Assembly: GCA_002869895.2 (NCBI GenBank)
Contig: NEWP02000014.1
Span: forward strand, 68,178-106,800
Source: Nitrospira sp. CG24E
GTDB lineage: Bacteria; Nitrospirota; Nitrospiria; Nitrospirales; Nitrospiraceae
Direction of reading: 5' to 3'
Length of the DNA stretch: 38,623 nucleotides
Shown here one piece after another: positions 18,510 to 31,547 of the stretch. A program made the translations under genes and the position numbers. Positions within the stretch are counted from its first letter, which is position 1. Every line of letters begins with the position of its first letter. A model generated the notes under the pieces. It did no database searches. It saw only the letters and a list, made by a program, of their open reading frames with translations, and was not told the DNA's origin.

Positions 18510-18937
18510 ACCATCGAACCGATACGGCGCCTGCATCCCTCCATGGGCAACCAGATTCGCCCCGGTCATGATATTGCACCTAGGAGCCTGTCCGAGTCAT
18601 GTCATTCTACTGCGGCAAACGATCTGCCGGCATCTGCATCGTGCTCAGCTCGAAAAAATCCTCAACGTATTCCAGTGAATACACCTCCAGTTTTTTCGAG
18701 CTTTGCGCCGCTCACCTGCCAGCTGCTCCTTCGCCTCGCAACAAAGAATTACTAATCCTCAACGTATTCCAGCGAATACGCTTCCGGTTTTTTCGAGCCT
18801 GCGGCCTTGCATCTACCAGCTGCTCTTTCGCCTCGCAACGAAGAATTACTCGGACAGGCTCCTAGGCAACAGATCTCTTGTTTTCTCCAGCGCACCACAT
18901 TCTCTGTGCGGTATCGATCCCGCACAGAAGGATACCA
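18510..18937. other. 428-base non-coding gap between pdxJ and nnr
   Basis: No gene is supported here. Bases 18579-18866 are a MITE-like element described separately. Just after it, CTGTGCGG (18904-18911) and CCGCACAG (18920-18927) form a perfect 8-base inverted repeat around TATCGATC, ending at the nnr ribosome site. That dyad could be an RNA hairpin controlling nnr translation or a protein-binding operator. No convincing promoter for nnr was recognised. Confidence 0.6.
18579..18866. mobile_element. MITE-like non-autonomous element with internal 97-base tandem repeat
   Basis: The ends are a perfect 19-base inverted repeat: CCTAGGAGCCTGTCCGAGT at 18579-18597 and its complement at 18848-18866. 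If TA is the duplicated target, the inverted ends begin GGAGCCTGTCC. Inside are two directly adjacent copies of a 97-base unit (18657-18753 and 18754-18850), about 85% identical by my count. A 12-base stem AGCTCGAAAAAA (18647-18658) pairs with TTTTTTCGAGCT (18691-18702), and each unit carries a CGTATTC/GAATAC hairpin. No transposase is encoded, so mobility would need one in trans. Confidence 0.75.
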
Positions 18938-30617: not shown

Positions 30618-31007
30618 CTACGAACTCATTTTCTCTTCGGGTGACTCACAATCCGTTTTGATCCGGAGATCGTCCAATAACTTCAAGACACGATCGCCTC
30701 TCGGCCCACTGACATCCTTGGCAAAGACGATCTCCGGCAGATACCGGAGCGAGAGCCGGCGCCCCAGCTCACCGCGTACAAACCCGCTGGCTTGAGCCAG
30801 CCCGGCTAAGGCGTTTCGTTCTTCTTCTTCCGTACCCATGGCGGTTACGAATACGCGCGCAATCCGCAGATCGCTGGTCAGTTTCACATCGGTCACGGTC
30901 ACGGATTGTACGCGGGGATCTTTGATCCTGCGCATGAGAATATCCGCCACTTCCATGCGGACTTGGTCGGCGACACGGTCGGCTCGATGATACCCTGTCT
31001 TGGCCAC
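30618..31007 (-). CDS. rbfA: Ribosome-binding factor A
   Basis: A 129-residue KH-fold factor needed for late 30S maturation. Seen: YHRADRVADQVRMEVADILM, DPRVQSVTVTDVKLTSDLRI and FVTAMGTEEE, then ELGRRLSLRYLPEIVF. The ORF is open to 31091, but the upstream part lies inside a repeat element. GTG 31007 has GGTGGAG 6 bases upstream and gives a family-like N-terminus. The ribosome site begins only 3 bases from the edge of that element, so the element forms most of the leader between ylxP and rbfA. Confidence 0.92.
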   Translation of the reverse strand: MAKTGYHRADRVADQVRMEVADILMRRIKDPRVQSVTVTDVKLTSDLRIARVFVTAMGTEEEERNALAGLAQASGFVRGELGRRLSLRYLPEIVFAKDVSGPRGDRVLKLLDDLRIKTDCESPEEKMSS

Positions 31008-31022
31008 CGCACACTCCACCTG

Positions 31023-31245
31023 GCAGGATGCTGAGAAAGTCGTCCTTCTCACCCGCCCGATCCCGGCGCGCCGAGACGCGCCTTTTCCCAAGCATCGTTC
31101 TCGCTTCGCTCAGAGGCTCAAGGGACAGGCTCCGGTATTGGCCGGTGCCTGTCCCGCTATCTGAGGGGGACAGCCACCAAGTAGTTGGGTGGCAGTCCGC
31201 GTCGCTTGCTGCGGCCTTGCTGGACGGCCATTTTGAGCACCCTGC
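31023..31245. mobile_element. MITE/REP-like element between ylxP and rbfA
   Basis: About 223 bases with imperfect inverted ends: GCAGGATGCTGAGAAAGTCG at 31023-31042 (continuing to 31045), matched by the complement of 31222-31245 (ending GAGCACCCTGC). Inside are three further hairpins: GGCGCG/CGCGCC (31065-31082); GGGACAGGC-T-CCGG paired with CCGG-T-GCCTGTCCC (31122-31155), a very strong stem with one mismatch; and GCCACC/GGTGGC (31173-31193). No ORF of its own. It fills nearly the whole 252-base gap between two genes that are normally adjacent. Confidence 0.65.
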
Positions 31246-31259
31246 TGGGCGTACTGCCG

Positions 31260-31547
31260 TCACAACAATTCCACTCGGGACTGAACGATCTCCACTGCCG
31301 GGACGCTCCTAATCAGGTTCAACGCCTGATCGCACACCTGATTCACGTATCGCCCTTCGTTGGCCACACACACTAGCCCCAAGACAGCCTTCTGCCACAG
31401 ATCCTGTCCATCGACCTCGGCAACCGAGAGATTGAACTTATCCCGCAGTCGATCTTTGAGACTCAACAACACCTGCCGCTTATCCTTCAACGAGTGACTC
31501 TCGGGGATGAACAGTTCGACCGTGCAGAGTCCGACGATGATACCCAC
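31260..31547 (-). CDS. ylxP: DUF503/YlxP-like protein
   Basis: A 95-residue small protein of the DUF503 family, found between infB and rbfA in many bacteria and tentatively linked to ribosome maturation. Family marks: VGLCTVELFIPESHSLKDKR near the N-terminus, then RLRDKFNLSVAEVDGQDLWQ and a late helix before VEIVQSRVELL. The start is GTG 31547, 16 bases after the infB stop; no clear ribosome site is visible, so coupling to infB is plausible. The biochemical role is not established. Confidence 0.88.
   Translation of the reverse strand: MGIIVGLCTVELFIPESHSLKDKRQVLLSLKDRLRDKFNLSVAEVDGQDLWQKAVLGLVCVANEGRYVNQVCDQALNLIRSVPAVEIVQSRVELL

Follow-up and report, generated by a model that had tools for sequence, protein, structure and literature searches.

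The ylxP-rbfA junction and its element

We analysed a stretch of 38,623 nucleotides from Nitrospira sp. CG24E (the window), in which ylxP and rbfA are 252 bases apart. Both genes lie on the minus strand, and the identities given to them in an earlier note on this DNA agreed with their Pfam matches (Table 1). We observed that the two genes are separated by a non-coding element of 221 bases. The earlier note had reported 223 bases, and its boundaries were right to about 1 base. The ends are imperfect inverted repeats, CAGGATGCTGAGAAAG (from 31024) and CATTTTGAGCACCCTG (ending at 31244). CCAGGTGGAG follows the element in the mRNA, and the ribosome site of rbfA therefore overlaps the outer flank copy; the earlier statement that the element stops 3 bases before this site was about right.

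The strong internal hairpin noticed earlier was found again, with arms of 14 nt (31122-31135 and 31142-31155) that are 93% complementary. When the region 31020-31250 was folded as the mRNA strand, the predicted energy was -112.4 kcal/mol (z = -4.58), and 0 of 200 shuffles did as well. The element is built from two repeat families, which we call A and B. No second copy was seen within the window at E<=0.01, and the window had no Rfam match above the gathering score. By YlxP, the closest named relatives were Nitrospiraceae and Nitrospira metagenome-assembled genomes, the nearest being L087 (98%), in a search that may leave out records very near the window genome; this puts the window genome in the Nitrospira clade.

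Table 1. Parts of the junction and its neighbouring genes, in window positions; L numbers denote loci.
Feature	Position	Strand	Remarks
rbfA	30618..31007	minus	Pfam RBFA; GTG start; downstream of the element
CTGG, left 4-bp flank repeat	31020..31023		putative target duplication, from the L099/L106 comparison; overlaps rbfA ribosome site
Family A element, mosaic	31024..31244	+	order: L end, module E, left arm, B in tip, right arm, R end
L end, CAGGATGCTGAGAAAGTC	31024..31041	+	canonical CAGGATGCTGAAAAAGTC; 94% to positions 1-18 of the 124-bp consensus
Module E, about 50 bp	31042..31090	+	common to L002, L006, L007, L175 and junction copies L057, L096, L109
Left inner arm	31091..31121	+	consensus positions 23-53, 87% identity
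Family B palindromic repeat	31122..31202	+	two hairpins (31122-31155, about 31164-31199) replacing the canonical hairpin tip; junction at consensus 53/82
Right inner arm and R end	31203..31244	+	31202-31244 against consensus positions 82-124: 91%
CTGG, right 4-bp flank repeat	31245..31248		read from the window sequence
ylxP	31260..31547	minus	Pfam DUF503; upstream of the element

Two other places in the window were noted. At the edge of the window, on the minus strand of positions 1-82, the family A consensus has two matches, both short and weak, which may represent a decayed copy. A different element with inverted ends, AGGAGCCTGTCCGAG ... CTCGGACAGGCTCCT, lies at 18581-18868. Within it is a tandem pair of 97 bp that weakly resembles the family A tip; this element is possibly the first repeat element of the earlier note.

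Family A in the genome and in the order

The search for further copies that had been proposed earlier was carried out in the window genome (3.45 Mb, 99 contigs). We observed 50 matches to the element at E<=0.001, many of them partial (40 of 188 candidates were scored). The family A end motif, searched with up to 2 mismatches, was present 252 times (129 + 123) as against 4 times for the reversed control pattern. In the loci retrieved from this genome, 64 paired palindromes could be extracted, 40 of which are 121-127 bp long. These canonical copies gave a 124-bp consensus that forms one long imperfect hairpin. In a sample of 117 genomes of the order, 109 gave a match to the consensus at E<=0.001. 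The matching genomes fall in 22 of 24 genera, and the matches were strongest in the window's own family and weaker in the other families.

The flank before the L end was YTAR-like (Y in 56, T in 50, A in 50 and R in 57 of 64 copies), and the flank after the palindrome was not, in the same 64 copies. This one-sidedness is accounted for by a third end, resembling TTTTTCCGCAGCCTG, that lies further downstream in 24 of the 64, at 75-78 bp in 19 of these 24, and is followed by TA in 15. The search for it allowed up to 4 mismatches in 15 positions and returned hits in 4 of 64 left flanks and in 3.6% of 3200 shuffled flanks. In the longer form, which includes the third end, the same 4-mer stood on both sides in 8 of 29 cases, a count reached by 0.0008 of shuffles (the 29 come from a wider set, and a few of them share an end). 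Palindromes lacking the third end showed no excess, with 8 identical 4-mer flanks among 206. When the palindrome edges were taken as the boundary, the flanks were identical in 1 of 60, and this one was the window copy itself, which has no third end. Since palindrome flanks generally disagree, the flank repeat of the window copy rests on the comparison with empty sites. In our reading, the longer form is a putative element of the classical type that duplicates 4 bp on insertion, and the palindrome would make up most of it.

Family A is thus short and present in many copies, has no transposase gene, and carries terminal inverted repeats, as a MITE does. A target duplication was seen for the longer form and for the window copy (CTGG/CTGG, compared with empty sites), and was not general at the palindrome edge. 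Among the matches listed in the literature on Nitrospira MITEs, repetitive elements, insertion sequences and palindromes, a scope that mostly left aside subscription literature, no title on family A was found; we do not claim that the family is undescribed. Several contigs of the window genome (C6, C7, C10, C23 and C89) start or stop near family A end motifs, so these repeats may break the assembly.

The same junction in related genomes

We compared the junction in 32 genomes of the genus, in which 30 YlxP loci were found and 29 had both genes (L060 has no rbfA). With the own genome included, 10 of the 29 junctions are filled and 19 are empty, the empty gap being 26-30 nt with the stop codon. 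The filled junctions carry their elements at the same place and with different interiors. In a second set, which overlaps the first and consists of the best 80 of 140 named loci, 79 could be assessed (L089 has no rbfA). Gaps of 4-65 nt, stop codon included, were seen in 67 of these 79, so near-adjacency of ylxP and rbfA is indeed the normal state, as had been stated. The other 12 have a family A-like element, 8 at the position of the window copy and 4 elsewhere in the gap. In the distant relatives L132, L141, L150 and L164 an A-like element of opposite orientation follows immediately on the ylxP stop codon (those of L150 and L164 have just one recognisable end), and the gap was therefore probably hit more than once.

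The clearest pair is the filled L099 and the empty L106, which differ by the element plus 4 nt. Most other filled junctions are flanked by CTAG at one end and by CCAG (CTGG) at the opposite end. A reading without duplication, with insertion on the 3' side of YTAR in the style of IS200/IS605, was dropped, because the third end was found downstream, often followed by TAG or TAA, and because the clearest empty junction lacks the 4 extra bases. The earlier proposal of an inserted repeat element thus holds as to insertion, with many copies, empty junctions in congeners, inverted ends and a 4-bp flank repeat, and needs revision in that there are two elements rather than one, B being set in a frame of A. 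The combination that the earlier note had named as refuting it, no other copy in the genome together with strong conservation of the exact sequence between the two genes in other species, was not what we found.

The filled species do not form one clade, and the similarity of the arms does not track the species tree. The own genome and L087 are sisters (support 1.000; infB part 95% identical), and their element arms are 88% and 85% identical; L087 has neither module E nor B. Against L096, the infB part is 88% identical and the arms are 92% and 95% identical, and the tips are unrelated. The arms compared are only 49-55 nt long. From these comparisons we infer that a resident junction element was rewritten, or else replaced by another copy.

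Mosaic interiors and family B

Variation of this kind was also seen away from the junction. Among the 64 own-genome copies, 24 fall outside the canonical length, and 8 of the 24 differ from the consensus in the block at the hairpin tip. The breakpoints, in consensus positions, are 62/68 (L203), 55/58 (L200 and L006), 55/59 (L007), 65/70 (L194), 55/72 (L018), 59/72 (L204) and 53/82 (the window copy). The remaining 16 differ elsewhere than the tip, and some are broken in one arm or twice. Larger central losses occur in L029 (27/79), L016 (15/88) and L202 (16/89), and in L175 only module E is added to the frame. In the longest four copies (379-541 bp) only the ends match the consensus, and these may be pairs formed by chance. 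The tip modules were of three kinds: one of 69 bp (L200, L028, L007 and L006), one of 91-101 bp (L194, L018, L204 and the junction copies L096, L100 and L104), and family B, present in the window copy and also, as judged by reading, in L004.

Family B has 15 matches in the own genome, the window copy included and several of them partial, and in the sample of the order it matched 15 of the 117 genomes (3 of 24 genera). It stands free at L008/L041, L042 and L052, and it also lies inside another inverted-repeat element at L043-L046 (four copies). As it occurs alone and within a different repeat element, B is an independent repeat. The element at L043-L046 belongs to a third repeat family, with ends like AGCCCGCATTATTCATGA. 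Family B resembles REP, BIME and REPIN sequences in being a short, imperfect and dispersed palindrome, with two hairpins in a row; unlike these, it had no GTAG foot in the copies read, and no linked RAYT (REP-associated tyrosine transposase) at the RAYT-like L086 and L085. None of the Y1 transposase loci L084-L086 had the family B motif.

Candidate parent insertion sequences

We observed an insertion sequence of about 1.3 kb in a congener (L274, genome G021), with CAGGCTGCGGAAAAAC at both ends and CTAG bounding each side. A complete family A element, also with CTAG on both sides, lies about 100 bp from it. The 16-base third end, exact in 2 of the 64 own copies, is the reverse complement of CAGGCTGCGGAAAAAC (16/16). 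The L274 transposase scored 280.5 bits with the IS5_4 model (cut-off 140, passed) and 182 bits with IS1182 (cut-off 270), and had no match among solved structures at E<=0.01.

A second type of insertion sequence, with ends CAGGCTGTTGACAAAC, was found in G004 (CTAG on both sides), G015 and G003 (one end varied). The G015 copy has CTAG on one side, and its right flank is cut after CTA by the contig end. When scanned, the G004 and G015 copies fell below the cut-offs of both the IS5_4 and the IS1182 models, IS1182 scoring best. The window genome has its own copy of the second type, broken by two stops. The third end of the family A copies L022 and L027 is close to CAGGCTGTTGACAAAC. Set against the ends of the first and the second type in turn, the canonical L end agrees in 13 and 12 of 16 bases, the window L end in 12 and 12, and the window R end in 11 and 10.

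Genome G025 gave 206 first-look family A candidates, among them the copy best matching the consensus (98%), and those listed are near the consensus. Four queries in G025, the second-type transposase, PF01609, PF05598 and PF01797, gave no match, so the mover of family A there lies outside these four queries or is gone. An own-genome insertion sequence next to queA, at L239/L371, was rejected as a parent, the best inverted repeat beside its gene being CTAGGGAAGGTCTGAT.

Copies flush behind stop codons

In this genome, 29 of 57 family A palindromes start at most 2 bases from an in-frame stop codon when ORFs of 80 codons or more are counted, and 25 of them at distance 0. The corresponding controls were 0 of 57 for the other end of the palindrome, 4 of 21 for the third end, and 1.3% of 1280 random points. 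When ORFs of at least 120 codons with a start codon were used, 27 of 59 copies were flush behind a stop; among extragenic YTRR sites of these loci the figure was 23 of 867 (p about 6e-27, on the generous assumption of independent copies). A cruder control, with YTAR sites upstream in the same loci and ORFs of at least 60 codons, gave 15.6% of 147 sites against 30 of 59 elements. The ORFs were called mechanically rather than taken from annotation, and one example, at L167/L371, was taken by eye to be queA. The counts exclude the elements longer than 300 bp (4 of 64) and any loci whose flanks were short. The 20 best-match loci of the order survey, several of them in other genera, included 10 flush copies; the window genome supplies 1 of the 20, which is not flush.

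The own-genome copies in this test include L012, L013, L017, L024 and L167, and about half of the copies tested start immediately after an in-frame stop codon; the copy in the window is not of this kind. If a YTRR target were duplicated over 4 bp, TAA, TAG or TGA would be regenerated, and the excess may reflect targeting or selection. A bolder proposal, which we think unlikely, is that family A is a stop-codon-seeking mobile 3'-end module. The YTRR target would cover all three stops, the duplication would restore the stop, and a two-way hairpin with A and U runs would be set flush behind genes across the order. The tip would then be a dock that swaps palindromes (B and the two further modules) by stem-loop replacing transposition, and the ylxP-rbfA copy would be a natural record of such an exchange.

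Effect on the operon

The earlier note had suggested that the element could stall or terminate transcription, be a target of RNase, or alter the rbfA:IF2 ratio. We observed no promoter-like or terminator-like sites on either strand of 30950-31350, in a scan that sees loops of 3-8 bases only. Our analysis gave no support to the proposed effects, and we do not favour them. With the same loop range, the canonical copy L013 (1380-1640) had 0 terminator-like sites.

The predicted mean unpaired probability (averaged by hand) was about 0.33 for the rbfA SD region in the 10 filled junctions and 0.27 in 8 chosen empty ones; for the rbfA start region it was about 0.26 filled as against 0.33 empty. Two junction pairs of the same length, with 10 and 9 differences, had no double-sided compensatory change and are uninformative. 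By these predictions the element is probably a tolerated, largely passive passenger, and at most a weak RNA-processing or polarity element.

Comparison with known systems

RUP with IS630-Spn1 and MITEAba12 with ISAba12 are bacterial MITEs with an identified parent (PMC2229807, PMC6382973). Like them, family A has inverted ends and many copies at a length in the range of about 100-220 bp, and a short target duplication or fixed target; ends shared with a transposase-bearing insertion sequence may be a further likeness. It differs in its alternative interior modules, its many stop-flush copies and its order-wide spread, and in that the link to a parent depends on a single type of end, which is identical in 2 of the 64 copies.

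Correia/NEMIS and ERIC are hairpin MITEs within transcription units, for which RNase III or RNase E processing has been reported, and the 155-bp Correia form carries a 50-bp internal sequence (PMC2229807, PMC10969869). Family A is alike in being a hairpin MITE inside a transcription unit. It has different ends and several alternative tip modules, one of which is an independent repeat.

IS1272, of the IS1182 family, has been reported to replace stem-loops, the content of its palindromic targets being replaced; the likeness to family A lies in a related transposase family and in palindromes as targets (PMC5678879). IS1272 replaces the whole target stem-loop without duplication, whereas here the outer arms stay, the interiors differ, and a 4-bp flank repeat is present. 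Stem-loop replacement like that of IS1272 is, by analogy, a possible route for the junction interiors.

Origin of the junction element

We consider it probable that the element is a non-autonomous MITE of an order-wide family, inserted with duplication of its site by an IS5/IS1182-type transposase acting in trans, its interior being rewritten later, and that it is mostly passive in the operon. This reading builds on the copy number, the inverted ends, the congener insertion sequences with related ends and flanks, the empty sites and the nested structure. Against it stand the lack of a third end in the window copy, the modest agreement of its two ends with either type of insertion sequence, the broken own-genome copy of the second type, the negative queries in G025 and the disagreement of palindrome flanks in general; the passive role is a prediction. 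The putative transposase would have met a 4-bp YTRR-like target within the gap between ylxP and rbfA and duplicated it on insertion. The placed palindrome would keep its outer frame while its interior is rewritten, and the own copy would so have gained module E in one arm and the B palindrome at its tip, neither of which the sister species has. The interiors differ between junctions, and the agent of rewriting may be copying between dispersed palindromes, repair of breaks at the hairpin tip, stem-loop replacing transposition, or re-insertion. Transcription would pass through the element, and its RNA would fold on itself as a hairpin with little change in the accessibility of the rbfA ribosome site; for this reason the element would be mostly a tolerated passenger.

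The rewriting step has a competitor, in which the different interiors are separate family A copies that inserted independently at the same nucleotide, the resident never being rewritten. The filled species are not one clade, a shared position could reflect target preference, and the gap of the distant relatives was hit at another position, all of which would suit it. However, the own copy and that of the sister L087 share variants of the R end (CCATTTTGAG.ACCCTG, partly present in L057 and L096) yet differ in E and in the tip, and the own copy and L096 have E and near-identical arms in common with tips that are unrelated. We find independent insertion doubtful on these grounds, though it keeps some weight. 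We regard as very improbable that family A is a REP/REPIN-type repeat, a palindrome with a foot tetranucleotide moved by a RAYT. The YTAR tetranucleotide on one side of the palindrome recalls such repeats, family B is itself REP-like in look, and three Y1 transposase matches were seen in the genome, of which one is RAYT-like (79 bits, with a cut-off of 80) and one has an internal stop; an IS200-type gene (L084) has a family A copy about 500 bp away. But the outer ends of the longer form agree in their 4-bp flanks and a DDE-type insertion sequence has the same end, motifs A, B and C are all absent from L085 and from the RAYT-like L086, and 13 of 32 genus genomes, several of the 13 incomplete, have no Y1_Tnp match.

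A further reading gives the element a function, as a site of RNA processing or of partial termination. Levels of rbfA and truB would thereby fall relative to those of infB and ylxP, and selection would maintain the element. The very stable fold, the one place filled in 10 of 29 genus genomes, and the filling of the gap in distant relatives at another position and orientation all speak for such a regulator. So does the canonical inner stem, which is followed by a U run on both strands, with AAAA in 33 of 40 copies and TTTT in 33 of 40 at the two ends. Yet the A/U run of the window copy is interrupted (GAGAAAG), and the terminator scan, blind to hairpins with long interiors, was negative for it and for L013. 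SD accessibility is similar in filled and empty junctions, compensatory changes were absent from the two pairs, and the element is missing in related species, including tree neighbours of filled ones. We therefore hold a selected regulator to be improbable.

On the preferred reading, that of an inserted and later rewritten MITE, what looked like an isolated oddity of a translation operon would be one visible copy of an order-wide mobile hairpin family of nitrite-oxidising Nitrospira, with a candidate parent transposase. The record of one site with different interiors would offer a test bed for palindrome rewriting in bacterial chromosomes. Should selection or targeting be what places half of the copies flush with stop codons, the family may influence where transcripts end across the genome.
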